DNA from: a virus
Direction: 5' to 3' (one strand)
Length of the DNA stretch: 29,005 bases
IMG/VR virus record: IMGVR_UViG_3300032177_000056
Coordinates: 1 to 29,005 of that record
Under the pieces are notes generated by a model. The model made no database searches, was not told the origin of the DNA, and was given only the letters and a program-made list of their open reading frames with translations. A program made the translations under genes and the position numbers. Positions 1 through 29,005 of this stretch are shown here, in pieces (position 1 is the first letter of the stretch; each line of letters starts with the position of its first letter).

Positions 1-1045
1 CCAATACCAAGGTCTGTTGTTTCTCACGAAAAGTTTCATCAGTGCTGGCAGTAGGCAAAAACACCTCAGCATCTACATCAGCCTCAGTGGTATCATCATT
101 ACTGTCACCAGCGTCATTGTCACCAGCGTCATTGTCACCAGCCTCAGCATCATCTACATCGTCCGCATCAGCATCAGATTCTTTCCCACCAGACTCTTCG
201 CCTTCATCCTCGGACTCTTCGCCTTCAGACCCTTCATCCTCGGACTCTTCACCTTCATCCTCGGACTCTTCGCCTTCAGACCCTTCATCCTCGGACTCTT
301 CACCTTCATCCTCGGACTCTTCGCCTTCAGACCCTTCATCCTCGGACTCTTCACCTTCATCCTCAGAATCTTGTCTCTGCTTCTCGCGCTTTTCTTGTTT
401 CTTTTTGGCGATTTCATCCTTCTGCTTTTCCTTGTCCTCTTCGCCCTTCTTCTGTTCATCCTTGCTGAATTCAAACAACTTGTTGGTCAACGCAAGAGTC
501 TCGTCCCAGGTCTCTATCTTCATCAATTCATCGTAGAAGGGCTGTTGTTCGGGGGTAAAGGTAATACCCAATTGCGAACCGCACTTAGCGACCAAGTTCA
601 GTTTGTTGATAAGGTAGAGTGTATTGTAGTCAAGAACCTTGCTCAGACCGAAAAAGTCTCGCGCAAGCAAATCCTTATATCCGCGAATCATCGGCGCACG
701 CAGACCGGGATATTGTCTCTTGACGTGTTTTTCAATTCGGGCATCCTCAACGGTATTGAGAAACCCAAGATAGGCTTTTTGTTTCTTTTGGGAAACTTTC
801 GTGGTTCCCCCTGCACACTCAACCGCCCGCATCCATCCCTTCGCAGGAGTGCGGAGGGCATGGGAAATTTCATGCCCCATAAACAGGTCATACAAGTCTC
901 CCGACATGTCTTTCCAGATTGGGCATATCAACACCCGCTTTTCCAAGTCAAACTGCGCAGTCTTGGCATTGCTGTGGTGTTCCACGCGAATGTTTTCTGT
1001 TGCCATCAACTTCGCCAACAGACTTTTTGTTTCAGCAGTAAACAA
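1..1045 (-). CDS. VWA-associated metallopeptidase-like protein, 3' end outside window
   Basis: Incomplete at its C-terminus because it runs off the window at base 1. I read 348 codons without a stop. The zinc signature HEISH follows the motif LYDLFMG, and about 40 residues later comes NTVEDARIEK, the downstream acidic-ligand motif usual in metallopeptidases of the CobT/DUF2201 type, which normally carry a C-terminal VWA-like domain. That domain would lie outside the window. After the catalytic part comes a Lys/Glu-rich helix and then an extremely acidic linker built from a 17-residue repeat. I chose TTG at 1045: a GGAG lies 8 nt upstream, the preceding gene stops 4 nt away, and the stretch LLAKLMATEN it adds matches the N-terminus I recall for marine T4-like homologues. 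The next choice is ATG at 1006. In cellular genomes such proteins often work with MoxR ATPases; the substrate here is unknown. Confidence 0.8.
   Translation of the reverse strand, partial: MFTAETKSLLAKLMATENIRVEHHSNAKTAQFDLEKRVLICPIWKDMSGDLYDLFMGHEISHALRTPAKGWMRAVECAGGTTKVSQKKQKAYLGFLNTVEDARIEKHVKRQYPGLRAPMIRGYKDLLARDFFGLSKVLDYNTLYLINKLNLVAKCGSQLGITFTPEQQPFYDELMKIETWDETLALTNKLFEFSKDEQKKGEEDKEKQKDEIAKKKQEKREKQRQDSEDEGEESEDEGSEGEESEDEGEESEDEGSEGEESEDEGEESEDEGSEGEESEDEGEESGGKESDADADDVDDAEAGDNDAGDNDAGDSNDDTTEADVDAEVFLPTASTDETFREKQQTLVL
193..366 (-). repeat. 51-bp in-frame tandem repeat, about 3.4 copies
   Basis: Three nearly identical 51-bp units (193-243, 244-294, 295-345) and a partial fourth (346-366) lie within the metallopeptidase gene. 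Each unit is 17 codons and encodes an acidic Ser/Glu/Asp/Gly block of the form SEDEGSEGEESEDEGEE. Unit 1 differs from the others by one base near its start. A shorter 15-bp repeat encoding GDNDA lies at about 108-140. The period is a multiple of three, so copy-number changes keep the reading frame. Confidence 0.93.
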
Positions 1046-3752: not shown

Positions 3753-4478
3753 TTAGTTCTCCCTATTGGAATGCACCGCTGTTGAGGGGGCTTGGGAGTT
3801 GAAGTGGTGCGTGATGCTCGTTGGGGTCTCGCGTCCATAGGTCTTGTCTTTCCCCTCAATCTTCAATTGTCGTTCCTTGTGTTCTACGATTTGCTGAATT
3901 TTCTTGAACAACTTCTTACGCTTCTTCTTCGCCATCTGCAAGGTGAGGTTGCCCACATGCTTCGTGTAGACAATCCCGTTCAGATGGTCTAGTTCATGCT
4001 GTGCGATCTTGGCAGTCGCGCCATTCCAAGTGGCTTCCACTGGTTTACCGAATTCATTGAGATACTTGATACGGATGGTCTCAGGTCGCGTGACCGATAG
4101 ATAGAGACCTGGGAAACTGAGGCATCCCTCTTTCGTTTGAACCGTCTCCTTGGAGGATTCAAGAATGACGGGGTTGATGCAGACAATTCCACCCACCATA
4201 ACGAACAGACGATAGGGGAATCCACACTGAGGCGAGGCGAGACCTGCCCCGCCATAGTGGTTCATGGTGTGGAGCATCGCATTGGCGAAGTCAATGATGT
4301 TGACGGGGGAATCCCCAACATTGAATTCAGGTTGCACCATTGCCAGCATCGGGTTCTTCTCGTTATACAACGGAAGCAACTGTGGAGTCGGCTTGGTGAT
4401 CGCCGGTGGGGTATCCGTGCGGTAGACGAATTCTTTCGGTGGGGTTTGGACTACAGGCTTGAGATCATCGATATTCAT
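3753..4478 (-). CDS. def: Peptide deformylase
   Basis: Removes the N-formyl group from nascent proteins using a metal ion (Fe2+ or Zn2+). All three family motifs are intact: GAGLASPQ (77-84), EGCLSFP (117-123, metal-ligand Cys119) and QHELDH (160-165, two metal His and the catalytic Glu). At 241 residues it is longer than bacterial enzymes (about 170) and much longer than minimal cyanophage versions. It carries roughly 55 extra N-terminal residues and a basic C-terminal tail from about 185 (KKKRKKLFKK). AGAGGA precedes the ATG, 11 nt after the gp46 stop, so it belongs to the gp55-gp47-gp46 operon. In cyanophages deformylase is thought to help synthesis of host or phage membrane proteins; whether that applies here is unknown. 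Confidence 0.95.
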   Translation of the reverse strand: MNIDDLKPVVQTPPKEFVYRTDTPPAITKPTPQLLPLYNEKNPMLAMVQPEFNVGDSPVNIIDFANAMLHTMNHYGGAGLASPQCGFPYRLFVMVGGIVCINPVILESSKETVQTKEGCLSFPGLYLSVTRPETIRIKYLNEFGKPVEATWNGATAKIAQHELDHLNGIVYTKHVGNLTLQMAKKKRKKLFKKIQQIVEHKERQLKIEGKDKTYGRETPTSITHHFNSQAPSTAVHSNREN

Positions 4479-6199: not shown

Positions 6200-7278
6200 T
6201 AGATCATTGCCGTTTCAGAATTCACAGCTTCCACATATAACTCTTGTAGCATACCCTTGAGTTTATCAGGTTCGACACCCCCTGGCATCGTCATCCCATC
6301 CACACACTTACGAATAATGGTCACGGTATCCTCTGCTTGGTCCACCACGCCTTGTGTGGGGTCCAAGACCGATTCGGAGTAATCCTCAACCACCGTCACA
6401 TCTAACGGGCTGACCTTATACAGGGAGTCCAACATCTGATCGAACAGGTAGGGATTCTGTTTGCGGGTGACCACGACCTTGACAAATGCACTGGCATAGG
6501 CTTGGAAGTCATGGCGTTTCCAGAATTCAAAGTTTTGAATTGAATCATCATAAAGAATCTTGTGGAACAACCGATAGGGATTTTCAATGAAGGTCAGTTC
6601 TCGCGTTTCGGTATCCAGAATATGGAACCCTCGCGGGTCCTTGTAGTCTGCCCAGGTAATTTCAACCTGATTTCCCAAGTAGTGAATGCACCCATCACTT
6701 GACTTGTGGTGAAAGTGTCCAGACAAGACCATATCAAATCGCTCAAAGGTCGCTTTGCTCATACCAGAGAGGCAGACATTGCCCTGGTCCATTTCAAACC
6801 CAGTGATTTCCAAGTGCCCCAAGATGATCGGGGACTTGGTGGTGGCGAGGAAGTTCATGGATTCTTCGTAGTTGCCTGAATTGATCCACGGCACCATCGC
6901 AACACTCAAACTACCAAATTGTTTATCTTTTACTCCCGTATAGATCGTGACATTCTTGTAGCCCCCGCATAATTCAGACAATGCGTTGATCTCGTTGGTG
7001 TTGCGGTAGTAGCAATCATGGTTGCCTGTCAGCATGTGCACGTCAACACCCATGTCAAGGAGTCTATCAAAGAAGTTCGTGCGCCAGGAATTCCATATCG
7101 CATAATTGATGAACTTCCGACGATCTACCACATCACCCAAATGGACCAGGGTGGTGATATTGTGCTTCTCAATATATGGAAAGAAGATGTTGTTGTAGAA
7201 CTTGAGGAAAAAGTCATTGACCTGTGTGTTGTCGCCTCTAGCCCCGAAGTGAGTATCGTTCAATAAGGCTACGAGCAT
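6199..7278 (-). CDS. 47: gp47 recombination endonuclease subunit (Mre11/SbcD-like)
   Basis: 359 residues, close to the length of T4 gp47. Calcineurin-like phosphoesterase motifs occur in order: DTH (8-10), GDVVDRR (48-54), GNHD (85-88), then LGHLEI and SGHFHH, which supply the metal-binding histidines. It is the nuclease partner of gp46, resecting DNA ends. The start is ATG 7278: it is 1 nt after the gp55 stop and has GGAG at 6-nt spacing. A longer reading would extend back through the gp55 gene and adds no recognisable sequence. Confidence 0.97.
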   Translation of the reverse strand: MLVALLNDTHFGARGDNTQVNDFFLKFYNNIFFPYIEKHNITTLVHLGDVVDRRKFINYAIWNSWRTNFFDRLLDMGVDVHMLTGNHDCYYRNTNEINALSELCGGYKNVTIYTGVKDKQFGSLSVAMVPWINSGNYEESMNFLATTKSPIILGHLEITGFEMDQGNVCLSGMSKATFERFDMVLSGHFHHKSSDGCIHYLGNQVEITWADYKDPRGFHILDTETRELTFIENPYRLFHKILYDDSIQNFEFWKRHDFQAYASAFVKVVVTRKQNPYLFDQMLDSLYKVSPLDVTVVEDYSESVLDPTQGVVDQAEDTVTIIRKCVDGMTMPGGVEPDKLKGMLQELYVEAVNSETAMI

Positions 7279-7279
7279 A

Positions 7280-7831
7280 TTAGTCTCCCACAAACTTGAG
7301 TGTGCCACCACAGGCTTTGACTTTTGGAATCTTCCGCCTGCTCTTATTCTTCCGACCCTGCTCATAGGTGGCGATGAAGTCAGAAATGTTTTCATACACC
7401 TGGAAGGACCGGCCCCTATCCTGTCCAATGCTATCAAGATCGTGCATGTTTGATTGTTGGAGAAGCCCTAGTTGCTCCGTGGCTTTATACTTGACGTAGA
7501 GTTGCTTTTTCTCTTTACTGATTCGTCGTAAGAATGCCCAGTAGATAATCTGTGTAAAATAGGCAAAGGGATTCTTGCCAATCTCAGGGTCAAAGTTGTG
7601 GACATACTGAATGCAGTTCTCCACCGCATCGGAAATCATATCCTCTCTGAAGGTGTAGGACATGAAGTTCGGCTTGCGAGACAACCGCTCCGCAATCTTG
7701 AGAAAACACATACCGATATAATGACTCAGTTCAGGCACGGGTTTGTTGCGTGCCTTGGCTTTCTCCACTAACTTGCGATGAGCGAGCAGTGCTGCGAGCA
7801 GTTCCTCGTTCTTGATGTAATGTGTTGCCAT
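7280..7831 (-). CDS. 55: gp55 late-transcription sigma factor
   Basis: 183 residues (T4 gp55 is 185). The central part contains a minimal sigma region 2: FREDMISDAVENCIQYVHNFDP, here quoted in pieces as FREDMISDAVENC and the promoter-melting stretch KNPFAYFTQIIYWAFLRRI. The C-terminus is basic (GRKNKSRRKIPK) and ends in the hydrophobic LKFVGD, comparable to the sliding-clamp-binding tail of T4 gp55. It would direct host RNA polymerase to TATAAATA-type late promoters, and such motifs occur upstream of genes 18, 19, 22 and the first post-portal gene in this window. AGGGGG lies just before the ATG. It is followed directly by gp47 and gp46. Confidence 0.95.
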   Translation of the reverse strand: MATHYIKNEELLAALLAHRKLVEKAKARNKPVPELSHYIGMCFLKIAERLSRKPNFMSYTFREDMISDAVENCIQYVHNFDPEIGKNPFAYFTQIIYWAFLRRISKEKKQLYVKYKATEQLGLLQQSNMHDLDSIGQDRGRSFQVYENISDFIATYEQGRKNKSRRKIPKVKACGGTLKFVGD

Positions 7832-11112: not shown

Positions 11113-11312
11113 CAGGTAACTTTGAATTCTGGACCTGGGAGGTTCGTGTCAACCGGACTATCAAATACAGGTGGATACACCGGGGGATAGTTGAACACAT
11201 ATTGGTGACAGGGGCATGACAATACATCGGGTGAATTCCCCCTGTTGCACTTTGGGCACACCCATCCCATACGATCTCTAAATGTGAATACTATCGGGTC
11301 GCCTTGTGCCAT
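11109..11312 (-). CDS. Small zinc-finger protein (67 aa)
   Basis: Contains WVCPKCNRGNSPDVLSCPC, a four-Cys arrangement (CPxC, then CPC) like a short zinc ribbon or RanBP2-type finger. After it comes a Pro/Tyr-rich tail (YPPVYPPVF) and a final Cys. ATG 11312 shares its first base with the stop of the upstream gene (TGATG), so the pair is translationally coupled. Function unknown: nucleic-acid binding or protein-protein contact is possible. It is the last gene of the P5 transcript, and its stop codon overlaps the -35 box of P4. Confidence 0.78.
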   Translation of the reverse strand: MAQGDPIVFTFRDRMGWVCPKCNRGNSPDVLSCPCHQYVFNYPPVYPPVFDSPVDTNLPGPEFKVTC

Positions 11313-11845
11313 CAAAGAATCTCCACGTCATAGAAGTCAAACCGAAAGACTGCATCAGCCGTAACGGGTTCCTCAGCCGACGATGCTGCGGAGAACATAA
11401 TGTCGGTGAGACTGGTTGGGAAGCAATTGCGATACTTGACGCGAATGTGTGGGTTCTGCTTGGAGTCCAAGACGATCAAGGTCGCGTCAGAAAATTGTGG
11501 CTGCGGTTTGTGCAGCATACCAGGGCGCAATGATAAGGCTTTGTATTCATCAAAACTAAACGGGAAAGTCAACGCACGCATCCAATTATAGACTTCCATC
11601 CATCCGGTCAAATCTTCGTCAACCTGGAAGGTGATTGCCAGTGGATTGATGTTGAGTTTTTCTCCTGGTGAAAACAAGTCAATCAAGGGGGTCTGTCGTA
11701 TGGCTTCTCCTGATGAAATGCCTGCGATATTCACGGCTTGACACCAATACTCCACGGTAGGAATTGTGGAGAAACTCAACACGAATTTATTTGGGTGCAG
11801 CACATTCGGATTCATCGGGGTGTGGGGAATACCAGGAATAGCCAT
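11312..11845 (-). CDS. Tail-tube (gp19)-like structural protein, second copy of the fold
   Basis: 177 residues. The order of elements matches the phage's own tail tube protein gp19: NKFVLSFSTIP against NLFEVQLTFP, then a Cys/Pro-Gly turn (CQAVNIAGI against CKTASMPGM), then PGEKLN against GREVKL, then ITFQVDEDLTGWMEVYNWM against WTLSVINDEDF with EKWM following, and finally an aromatic FRFDFYDVEIL against VTLAYQYF. I infer a gp19/Hcp-type tube fold by hand alignment, not by profile search. I recall similar proteins annotated as virion structural in marine T4-like phages. It lies outside the late block, in the P5 transcript, coupled to the zinc-finger gene. AAGGA precedes ATG 11845. It might cap or start the tube. 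Confidence 0.7.
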   Translation of the reverse strand: MAIPGIPHTPMNPNVLHPNKFVLSFSTIPTVEYWCQAVNIAGISSGEAIRQTPLIDLFSPGEKLNINPLAITFQVDEDLTGWMEVYNWMRALTFPFSFDEYKALSLRPGMLHKPQPQFSDATLIVLDSKQNPHIRVKYRNCFPTSLTDIMFSAASSAEEPVTADAVFRFDFYDVEIL

Positions 11846-20642: not shown

Positions 20643-21197
20643 TTAAACGATAACAGTGCCGTCTTTTGCGACTGCGGTAAAATACTGGTAGGCGAGCGTG
20701 ACGCTGAATTCTTCGATGGTGTCGTTGCTGCCCCAGTCCAAATCGATCTGTGACATATCAACAGGGAACATACCAGTGAAGGTATAGGTCTTGATGATCT
20801 CACCGGTCTTGGAGAACTGGTTGACTAATGCAGTGGTCGAGTAACCAAGCGAGTTGCCTGCCCACTGATCCCGCACGTTCGTTACCACACGGTTCATACC
20901 ATTCATCCACTTTTCAAAGCCATTGCGTACCGAGAAATCTTCATCGTTGATGACAGAAAGCGTCCACTCAGGGAATGTGCGGTTTCCTGCGAGTTTCACT
21001 TCACGACCAAAGTAGAACAACGGCACATGCCCGATGGTCATACCCGGCATCGAAGCCGTTTTACACATGAAGGTCAGCTTACGATTTGCCGCACCTGGAT
21101 TGACCGAAGTGGGAAACGTGAGTTGAACTTCAAACAGGTTTGGGCGAGCGCCGTCACCTTGTAACTGCGCTCTGAATTCATAGGCATTGAAGGGCAT
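20643..21197 (-). CDS. 19: gp19 tail tube protein
   Basis: 184 residues (T4 gp19 is 163). It starts MPFNAYEFRAQLQGDGARPN, followed by the family's LFEVQLTFP strand, the CKTASMPGMTIG turn, FYFGREVKLAGNRTFPEW and FEKWMNGMN, and it ends with a beta strand FSVTLAYQYF. It polymerises into the inner tube of the contractile tail. It lies directly downstream of sheath gene 18, as in T4, with AAGGAG before the ATG and a weaker late-promoter motif about 20 bases upstream. Confidence 0.95.
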   Translation of the reverse strand: MPFNAYEFRAQLQGDGARPNLFEVQLTFPTSVNPGAANRKLTFMCKTASMPGMTIGHVPLFYFGREVKLAGNRTFPEWTLSVINDEDFSVRNGFEKWMNGMNRVVTNVRDQWAGNSLGYSTTALVNQFSKTGEIIKTYTFTGMFPVDMSQIDLDWGSNDTIEEFSVTLAYQYFTAVAKDGTVIV

Positions 21198-26512: not shown

Positions 26513-27412
26513 TTATGCGTCACCGAAGGGATTTTGTTCTGAAAAATCAAGGATCGCATTGGATTCAGTCTCTAGAATCTTATTGTCCACGGTATCCTCA
26601 AACTGCAAGTCCAGAGGCGTGTTCGTGTCAAGGCTTGCCATAATCCATGTCGCTCCGCTGTTCGCCCCCTTGACGTTCGCGGTATTGGAGAACAACCCGT
26701 TCACCAACGCAATTCCCAATGTGCTGTTGCCAGAATACCAAGTGTGCGCGGTTCCAAACGCATTCGCGTATGCTACATTCGCCCCCTGATATACAATTTC
26801 ATTGTTCGCCACATCAAAGGTGCCTGTGCCGCCCGCAGTCAAGACGAGATTCGTGAGTTGATAGGATTCAAGTATCTGATCGTCCACTTCATCAACCCCT
26901 GTTTGAATACGTTCATTGGAGAACACAAACTGCTTCAACTTGAGTGCGTAGACATACACATTGCCCCCTCGACCACGCCCCAAGGTATAGAACATCGCTT
27001 GTTGGTTTTCATGCTCCACGAAGGTAATCTCCATGAAATTTTGCATGAGGGGGACATAGATGATGTCTCCTTCGCGGGGTCTGACCAAGGAAGGAATGGT
27101 AAAGTTGAATCGTCTGCGCGACACCAGTAGGGTCATTTCATCGCGGATTTCCATGCCAAACTTACTGATAATATCCCCAACCCCATCCATCCCCACGATG
27201 TTTTCCACATACATCTCAATAATGTAGGCTTGCGGGAAGGTCTTGAGTTGATCTTCACCCATGAGTTTGTCAATCTGGTCACGCGATTCTCGCGGCAGAT
27301 AATAGACATCCATACCATGAATTTTGTTGGCTTCTATCACCAAGTCCTCAATGAGCAATTGCTCTGAGGTCACTGTCTCAGGAAAGAAGTTGAAGTATTG
27401 ATTAGTAGGCAT
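26513..27412 (-). CDS. 14: gp14 neck protein
   Basis: 299 residues (T4 gp14 is 256). Shared with T4 gp14: LLIEDLVIEANKIHGMDVYY then LPRES, then GDIISKFGMEIRDEMTLLVS, RPREGDIIYVPLMQN and FMEITFVEHENQQAMFYTLG. It forms the collar connecting head and tail with gp13, which is not in the window. An insertion of about 70 residues (about 200-265) rich in Asn, Ala and Gly (GANVAYANAFGTAHTWY, NTANVKGANSGATW) has no T4 counterpart. AAGGA lies before ATG 27412, directly after the Fe-S carrier gene. Confidence 0.92.
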   Translation of the reverse strand: MPTNQYFNFFPETVTSEQLLIEDLVIEANKIHGMDVYYLPRESRDQIDKLMGEDQLKTFPQAYIIEMYVENIVGMDGVGDIISKFGMEIRDEMTLLVSRRRFNFTIPSLVRPREGDIIYVPLMQNFMEITFVEHENQQAMFYTLGRGRGGNVYVYALKLKQFVFSNERIQTGVDEVDDQILESYQLTNLVLTAGGTGTFDVANNEIVYQGANVAYANAFGTAHTWYSGNSTLGIALVNGLFSNTANVKGANSGATWIMASLDTNTPLDLQFEDTVDNKILETESNAILDFSEQNPFGDA

Positions 27413-27418
27413 AGGTCC

Positions 27419-27736
27419 TTATGAGAATGAGGAGCCACAACCACAAGTACTTTTTGCTTGTGGGTTCTTGATTGCAAAGCCCGAACCTTGAAGCGTGTCC
27501 GTGTAATCAATGTCGGCACCCACAAGCATCGGCGCACTTTGCGAGTCTATCACTACCTTGATACCGTTCTTCTCAATCACTGTGTCATCTTCTTCAATCT
27601 TTGTTTCTAGTGCCATGCCATAGGAAAATCCATGACATCCACCCCCCTTGACATAGACGCGCAACCCTTGGGCGTCGGCATCATCAGCCATGAACACCTT
27701 GATCTTCGCTACGGCGGCTTCAGAAATTGTCACCAT
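27419..27736 (-). CDS. A-type iron-sulfur cluster carrier (IscA/ErpA/HesB family)
   Basis: 105 residues, the normal size. The three conserved cysteines are present: GGGCHGFSYG (Cys34) and STCGCGSSF (Cys98, Cys100). Cellular homologues usually have GGCSGF; His replaces Ser here. These proteins receive Fe-S clusters from scaffolds and deliver them to apo-enzymes. GAGGT precedes the ATG, 10 nt after the gp88-like gene, and gene 14 follows after 6 nt, so it is embedded in the virion operon. Homologues are known in T4-like cyanophages; the client protein is not established. Confidence 0.93.
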   Translation of the reverse strand: MVTISEAAVAKIKVFMADDADAQGLRVYVKGGGCHGFSYGMALETKIEEDDTVIEKNGIKVVIDSQSAPMLVGADIDYTDTLQGSGFAIKNPQAKSTCGCGSSFS

Positions 27737-27746
27737 GATATACCTC

Positions 27747-28907
27747 TTAGTGAACGAGCAAATATGTACCTATAACATCCTTACGAGTTGCGCTATCATC
27801 GCCATGCCCCGACCATACCAGGACGTTCCAATGGGGAGCCGTTCCTACAGGTTTCTTCATCATTTCATCATAGGTGATGATGGTGGAGACATCAGAAATA
27901 GCATACTTGTGTGCCATGCGGTGTCTGAATTCATCCAAGGCTGCGGCATCTCTAAATTGCATGCGACCTTGAGAATCCTTGATAAGGGTGTTGCCTTTGC
28001 GAGCGATCAGGTCGTAGAATAAATCTTTTGGCACAACGCGACTATGCTTGGTCTTGGCAAAGTCTACCAACTTCTCCTGGGAAGGCTGTGCGCCGCCGCT
28101 GAAGTTGAACAGGAAGTTGTCGGGCTTGTTGCTGGCTTGTGCAACCGCAGCAATCTTAGTATAGGCGTAGAATTCAATCGCAGGATATCTGCGTGCCACG
28201 TCAAAAGCCACTTCCATATACTCAGGGCTGAAGAAGTCTCCCGCATCATGCCAACGTAGGACAACCTTTGTTCCCTTCTTGGCATACTTGCGCTCGGCAT
28301 CAGCCAACTCGGCACTGAGCATATGCTTGAATCCATCGGGATCATTGAGTAAAAAATTCAAGACGCGAGTGGTGCCAAGGCTAGCAGCAGGGTATTGAAT
28401 GTATCCACCCTTCATGGCATAACAGAACGTCTTGCAGACACCCGCACCTGGGCAGGTATCCACAATGACAAATTCCCCAGTCTTTTCATCGACTGCCAAT
28501 CCTTTGAGTGCGGGGAGTCCGACATTGAAGAAAATGCTACTGGTGCCATCGGAGTGCTGCATCTTCTCGTTCTGCTTGGTGATCCGCTTGGGACGCTGAG
28601 TCACTAAGGCACGCAGCTTCTCCAGGTCATATTCTTGCCCATGTTCACCCTTGATTTCAATGTTGCTACCGTGAATGTAGGGCTTGGCATACTTTTCTAG
28701 TTTGCCTTTGCTTCCTTCTTTGGTGCGCTTCAGGTAATCCTGTAATTCAGCATGGGGGAACGCATGGGTGGTCGCACCCAAGGGGTTCCACATTTCCTGA
28801 AGGGAAGTCGTTTTGAGAAAGGTCTCCAGAGGAACAATGGTGAGATTGTTCTTTTTCTTGCCTGGAATGCCTTCTGCGATGAATCGTCGGAATTTTCTCA
28901 GTGCCAT
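27747..28907 (-). CDS. gp88-like protein (PF17338-type), putative metal-cluster protein
   Basis: 386 residues. The family signature is VDTCPGAGVCKTFCYAMKGG; Cys152, 158 and 162 are the only cysteines in the protein. Then come VLRWHDAGDFFSPEYM (about 216-231) and IEFYAYTKIA, which are the hallmarks I recall for the mycobacteriophage gene-product-88 family. Alternating strands and helices in the C-terminal two thirds suggest a TIM-barrel-like fold. The first 110 residues are basic and not conserved in my memory of the family. The Cys cluster (C-x5-C-x3-C) suggests Fe-S or zinc binding. No biochemical function is established. A GGGG-type site precedes ATG 28907, and the next gene is the Fe-S carrier. 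Confidence 0.78.
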   Translation of the reverse strand: MALRKFRRFIAEGIPGKKKNNLTIVPLETFLKTTSLQEMWNPLGATTHAFPHAELQDYLKRTKEGSKGKLEKYAKPYIHGSNIEIKGEHGQEYDLEKLRALVTQRPKRITKQNEKMQHSDGTSSIFFNVGLPALKGLAVDEKTGEFVIVDTCPGAGVCKTFCYAMKGGYIQYPAASLGTTRVLNFLLNDPDGFKHMLSAELADAERKYAKKGTKVVLRWHDAGDFFSPEYMEVAFDVARRYPAIEFYAYTKIAAVAQASNKPDNFLFNFSGGAQPSQEKLVDFAKTKHSRVVPKDLFYDLIARKGNTLIKDSQGRMQFRDAAALDEFRHRMAHKYAISDVSTIITYDEMMKKPVGTAPHWNVLVWSGHGDDSATRKDVIGTYLLVH

Positions 28908-28911
28908 CGTT

Positions 28912-29005
28912 TTACCCCATAAGGAAGTCTGATTGGAGGGTGTTCCACGTCAAGAACTCTGCCTTGAGCCGTGCTATCTCTGCTTCTGCTTCATCAAAAA
29001 TCTGT
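28912..29005 (-). CDS. 3' end of an unknown gene, 5' end outside window
   Basis: The last 31 codons before a TAA at 28914-28912 are open to the window edge. They encode a Glu/Ala-rich amphipathic helix (IFDEAEAEIARLKAEFLTW) followed by NTLQSDFLMG. Too short to identify. It ends 4 nt before the gp88-like ATG and is probably in the same transcript. Confidence 0.6.
   Translation of the reverse strand, partial: QIFDEAEAEIARLKAEFLTWNTLQSDFLMG

Follow-up and report, generated by a model that had tools for sequence, protein, structure and literature searches.

A phage GP88-family protein resembling radical SAM enzymes shares a fixed-order slot with iscU and iscA in one clade of T4-like phages

Results

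A GP88-family gene and an A-type carrier gene at the head of a virion operon

The window, i.e., the whole 29,005-nucleotide stretch of viral DNA analysed here, comes from a T4-like phage whose virion genes lie on the minus strand, running from a gp14-like to a gp23-like gene. A GP88-family gene and a gene for an Fe-S carrier lie at one end of it. The features of this region, with the evidence for each in brackets, are as follows.

28908..29005, minus strand: 3' end of the upstream gene, truncated by the window edge (relatives L001-L019)
27747..28907, minus strand: GP88-family protein, 386 aa, predicted to be radical-SAM-like (PF17338, conservation, AF2 model)
28422..28457, minus strand: cysteine-motif codons TCPGAGVCKTFC, Thr151-Cys162, with Cys 152, 158 and 162 (counted from the start codon at 28907)
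27737..27746, minus strand: junction GAGGTATATC, 10 nt (sequence)
27419..27736, minus strand: A-type Fe-S carrier (ErpA/IscA type), 105 aa (NF010147, PF01521, PDB 2apn_A, Cys positions)
26513..27412, minus strand: gp14-like head-closure protein (Hc2), the downstream border of the slot discussed below (phrog_460, 1e-65)

In relatives L001-L019, a gene of ~320 aa in the gp13 position stands directly upstream of GP88 and forms the upper border of the slot. Downstream of GP88 and the carrier, on the same strand, are gp14-, gp15-, gp16-, gp17-, gp18-, gp19-, gp20-, gp21-, gp22- and gp23-like genes. The junction between the two genes reads TAA-GAGGTATATC-ATG; a GAGG Shine-Dalgarno-like site immediately follows the GP88 stop codon, with the carrier ATG 6 nt further on, and this placement suggests possible translational coupling of GP88 and the carrier.

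Elsewhere, the window contains a peptide deformylase gene (phrog_2890; 3753-4478, minus strand) and two tail-tube genes (phrog_45; 11312-11845 and 20643-21197, both minus strand). One of the latter sits outside the usual gp18-gp19-gp20 order, and no direct similarity between the two was detectable by BLASTP. At 192-372, a 51-bp tandem repeat gives rise to an acidic, SEDEGEE-type tract in a 348-aa open reading frame (2..1045, minus strand).

The carrier scored above the cut-offs of the ErpA model NF010147 (5.7e-38; 129.6 bits versus 117) and of TIGR00049 (126.3 bits versus 58.8), and matched PF01521 (1.9e-21) and PDB entry 2apn_A (HI1723; 5e-30). All three ligand cysteines (Cys 34, 98 and 100) are present in the arrangement C-x63-C-G-C, which places the protein in the A-type family. 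The phage IscU proteins encoded by relatives of the window retain three cysteines and the LPPVK motif, which is the recognition site for HscA.

The window GP88 matched PF17338 with an E value of 5.5e-32 and 111.9 bits, against a Pfam gathering cut-off of 24.4, and belongs to that family. Its sole cysteines are those of the motif C152-x5-C158-x3-C162. Thus, where the first-pass annotation had described a protein with all of its cysteines in C-x5-C-x3-C, followed after 10 nt by an intact A-type carrier within a virion operon, our analysis agrees on each count.

Conservation and distribution of GP88

The three motif cysteines were kept in 68 of the 68 viral sequences covering the motif, most of which had no other cysteine, so that the motif is not a chance arrangement; they were also invariant in an 83-sequence alignment that included actinobacterial homologues. 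The cyanophage-type proteins carry C-x5-C-x23-C-F-A (27 of 28, the remaining one having the short loop), and the ligands therefore persist despite a changed loop length. Also invariant were the motifs R218-x-H220-x2-G-D-F and Y-T-K251.

The cysteine motif, GDFF and YT[KR] are common to the window GP88 and the gp88 family of mycobacteriophage D29 (PF17338; PHROG 1392 and 1617). However, the window protein, at 386 aa, is longer, with N- and C-terminal parts that are not found in the PF17338 types of 215-250 aa. It also lacks the extra conserved C-terminal 4-Cys motif, ending C-x2-C-x2-C, of GP88 from D29-type mycobacteriophages (L389-L395), a motif whose sequence suggests a candidate second, fully ligated (auxiliary) cluster site in that clade. 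Five GP88 open reading frames (L036, L054, L072, L078 and L080) have N-terminal extensions of ~200-400 aa, based on putative starts, and these extensions matched no Pfam family.

GP88 was found in 471 viral stretches and in 285 phage records, chiefly of Mycobacterium and Streptomyces phages, and by fold match in archaeal viruses. It is also carried by actinobacterial genomes (loci L101-L178), some of which have two or more copies; here PrgI and Replic_Relax are common neighbours, and, judged by these neighbours, the loci are probably conjugative elements. The neighbours at other GP88 loci include a carbamoyltransferase, an AAA ATPase, a kinase/cytidylyltransferase, PrgI and Replic_Relax, and because they vary no clue to the substrate could be read from them. 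A search of the PDB with the GP88 sequence returned nothing meaningful, and a literature search found no paper on PF17338 or "gene product 88". The sole paper found that combined gp88 with radical SAM concerns a different gp88.

GP88, iscU and iscA share a slot of constant order

Phages of the window's clade carry GP88, iscU and iscA in the slot that lies between the ~320-aa gene in the gp13 position and gp14. The order is constant, with each member absent in some lineages: all three genes are present in L002 and L013, GP88 and iscU in L010, and GP88 and iscA in the window. In L013, an inserted GIY-YIG endonuclease-like gene (6550-7314) separates iscU from iscA. In 55 loci outside this clade, the border genes are only 6-19 nt apart.

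Among 24 cassette rows we counted GP88 with iscA in nine, GP88 alone in five, iscU with iscA in five, all three genes in two, iscA alone in two and GP88 with iscU in one, while iscU alone was not found. On a gp14 tree of the same rows, the minimum number of changes was 4 for GP88, 4 for iscU and 5 for iscA. Within the clade, gene losses are uncoupled, and the association therefore rests on shared position and order.

Two large genomes, L187 (176 kb) and L326 (178 kb), have isc genes, and no GP88 or PF04055 match was found in either; conversely, L017 (168 kb) has GP88 and no isc gene. The carrier is therefore neither required for GP88 nor exclusive to it. An isc gene was present somewhere in three of ten GP88 records longer than 100 kb (L006, L042 and L072), and among 204 further GP88-type loci isc genes occurred, within the flanks that were read, only at L033 and L081, both from the window's clade. 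Most GP88 phages have no isc gene in the sequence examined, and adjacency of carrier and GP88 was seen in a single phage clade.

These results modify the proposal, made in the first-pass annotation, that the two genes form a module in which the carrier may load GP88. The association itself stands, within the window's clade, so that the refuting outcome named there, in which other phages would show no genomic association of the two genes, is rejected. What it had taken for two genes is a three-gene slot with mosaic losses, and an obligate two-gene module is ruled out by the loci with a single gene, nearly every subset having been seen. The pairing is genuine without being obligatory: the carrier is a frequent neighbour of GP88 in one clade and not its obligate partner.

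It is almost an even call whether the pairing has any functional meaning. We put at a little under one half the chance that GP88 and the isc genes, as passengers without any relation to each other, share an insertion hotspot between gp13 and gp14, with the carrier feeding Fe-S proteins of the host, or phage Fe-S proteins other than GP88, and the cluster of GP88, if any, coming from the host. In favour of this are the mixture of subsets among the 24 cassette rows (nine with GP88 and iscA, down to one with GP88 and iscU) and the genomes with isc genes or GP88 alone (L187 and L326, or L017). However, the order GP88-iscU-iscA never changes, and iscU never occurs by itself. Moreover, no PF04055 client was found in L001-L003, L006 and L013, and GP88 is therefore the obvious candidate client in these records, as judged by a search for PF04055 only. 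This explanation concerns the pairing alone and does not conflict with GP88 being radical-SAM-like. For a functional, non-exclusive link between GP88 and the carrier, our estimate is about one half.

A chain of resemblance leads from GP88 to a radical SAM family

When GP88 was aligned with DUF5131 (Gp37/Gp68) using hhalign, the score was 38.6; the highest score among 100 column shuffles was 25.7. The alignment pairs Cys162-Tyr-Ala of GP88 with a Cys-Tyr-Ala of DUF5131, GDFF with SDLF, and YTK with LTK. In addition, the DUF5131 protein of L191 exceeded the Pfam cut-off for GP88 (28.1 versus 24.4 bits). By sequence comparison, then, GP88 and DUF5131 share ancestry of the core. They are nevertheless distinct: the window GP88 had no match to PF07505 and is not a member of DUF5131, and the short GP88 of L089 reached 16.2 bits, below the cut-off of 28.9. 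Unlike GP88, DUF5131 has the spacing C-x6-C-x2-C in place of C-x5-C-x3-C and an Asn at the position aligned with His220, and it differs in its C-terminal part, in its TcmP neighbour and in its match to the candidate defence models PDC-M41B/M30B. In L191 (1489-3368), the DUF5131 gene adjoins TcmP (TIGR04474) and matched these PADLOC models; GP88, which is distantly related to this candidate defence protein, matched no PADLOC defence model itself.

The protein of L191 also matched TIGR04471, "radical SAM mobile pair protein A", with an E value of 4e-22, although its score was far under the equivalog cut-off (78.7 versus 355). This likeness comes through the DUF5131 relative and not from GP88 itself, which matched no NCBIfam model. 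The window GP88 has no canonical CX3CX2C motif and no PF04055 among its Pfam matches. When GP88 was compared by hhalign with 27 viral PF04055 (radical SAM) proteins, the scores were at the level of shuffles, and a direct profile link to canonical radical SAM proteins was dropped as evidence. Because the canonical motif is absent and the comparison with PF04055 failed, the path from GP88 through DUF5131 to TIGR04471 is a chain of sequence resemblance, short of membership of the radical SAM family. Departures from the canonical spacing are known among radical SAM enzymes: CX5CX2C is functional in HcgA and HmdB (PMC10100467), and QueE has a lengthened cluster loop, CX14CX2C (PMC4389238).

Predicted structures rank radical SAM enzymes first

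AlphaFold (AF2) models were obtained for the window GP88 (pLDDT 87, pTM 0.83) and for a 246-aa homologue of the Streptomyces-phage type (pLDDT 93, pTM 0.89). Both contain a strand, the cysteine loop, helices, a strand ending in R-x-H-D-x-G-D-F and more β/α units. In the window model, which is barrel-like, the cysteine loop comes immediately after a core strand; DSSP assigned a strand at 145-150, followed by the cysteines (152-162), helices, a strand at 214-219 (R-x-H) and strands at 245-250, 265-270 and 288-291.

Using VIA-align, spore photoproduct lyase took ranks 1-6 for the window model (Z = 7.6-6.9; the next row had 5.7), with QueE, viperin and NifB at 5.5-5.6. For the 246-aa model, ranks 1-7 were all radical SAM enzymes (EpeE, BtrN, ChlB and MiaB; Z = 6.7-4.4). 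Values of Z below 8 may reflect a common barrel and are not proof of kinship. Plain TIM barrels were also among the fold matches, and in a library of viral-protein folds the matches to GP88 included one protein named Gp37/Gp68-like. Foldseek alone gave no match with E <0.05 for either model. The best matches to the two models (spore photoproduct lyase, QueE, viperin, EpeE and BtrN) differ from GP88 in that identity is 8-14%, with Z <8, and GP88 lacks both CX3CX2C and the GGE motif. In these predicted structures, the informative part of the comparison is that two models each rank radical SAM enzymes first.

The idea that GP88 is radical-SAM-like, which had been raised together with a proposed check by structure prediction, thus gains from the DUF5131/TIGR04471 chain, from the barrel-like model and from the top ranks of radical SAM enzymes for both models. 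It is held back by Z values of at most 7.6, by the null result with Foldseek and by the failed profile comparison with PF04055 proteins.

Discussion

The explanation that we favour, and consider moderately probable, is that GP88 is a phage [4Fe-4S] enzyme of the radical SAM type with a non-canonical cluster loop, accompanied by Fe-S helper proteins as putative suppliers. The three invariant cysteines would hold three irons of the cluster at the mouth of a (β/α) barrel, leaving the fourth iron open to S-adenosylmethionine, and cleavage of the latter would initiate radical chemistry on a substrate, either nucleic acid or protein. The ErpA/IscA-type carrier, together with the IscU scaffold in relatives, may raise the supply of clusters late in infection, with GP88 as one likely client among several. 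In this proposal we infer iron rather than zinc, the binding of SAM, the transfer from carrier to GP88, and the substrate.

Two other accounts of the cysteines were considered. It is unlikely, in our view, that GP88 carries a [4Fe-4S] cluster for a structural, sensing or nucleic-acid-binding role and performs no radical chemistry with SAM. Such a role would suit the failure of radical SAM profiles to match directly, as well as the location of the genes, which in phages and conjugative elements lie in regions for packaging or transfer, but the polar residues that are strongly conserved at strand ends (R218, H220, D221, D224 and K251) fit catalysis, and radical SAM enzymes head the fold matches. 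Slightly less likely still is a structural or catalytic zinc protein, in which the three cysteines and His220 would hold zinc and the barrel would carry out hydrolytic or other non-radical chemistry: His220 is invariant, three cysteines and one histidine form a common zinc site and plain TIM barrels are among the fold matches, but the DUF5131 relatives linked to the NCBI radical SAM family have Asn in place of His220, the cysteine loop varies in length from x3 to x23 with an added 4-Cys motif in one clade, and the slot is shared with Fe-S biogenesis genes.

Returning to GP88 as a radical-SAM-type enzyme, a broader and distinctly more doubtful proposal is that it represents an unrecognised radical-SAM-like lineage of tailed phages, archaeal viruses and actinobacterial conjugative elements, with the loop C-x5-C-x(3 to 23)-C-[YF]-A. 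Such a lineage might perform radical modification or repair tied to the way in which the element packages or transfers its DNA, one phage clade having combined GP88 with its own IscU and IscA.

It has already been published that marine T4-like viruses encode A-type carriers and IscU, proposed to support Fe-S proteins, in genomes with many Fe-S clients that include radical SAM enzymes (PMC5332604). Whereas those viral isc genes were treated as auxiliary metabolic genes, the genes described here lie within the virion operon, where they share a slot of constant order with GP88. This slot, and the link of GP88 to the radical SAM class, are new.

Hundreds of phage genomes encode GP88, among them those of D29, a well-studied mycobacteriophage, and its relatives, and we found no function for the protein. 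The prediction of an oxygen-sensitive [4Fe-4S] radical enzyme makes this large "unknown" family a target for biochemistry. The fixed-order slot also provides a natural case in which to ask whether phages supply their own enzymes with Fe-S assembly factors, as has been asked previously for the marine T4-like viruses.
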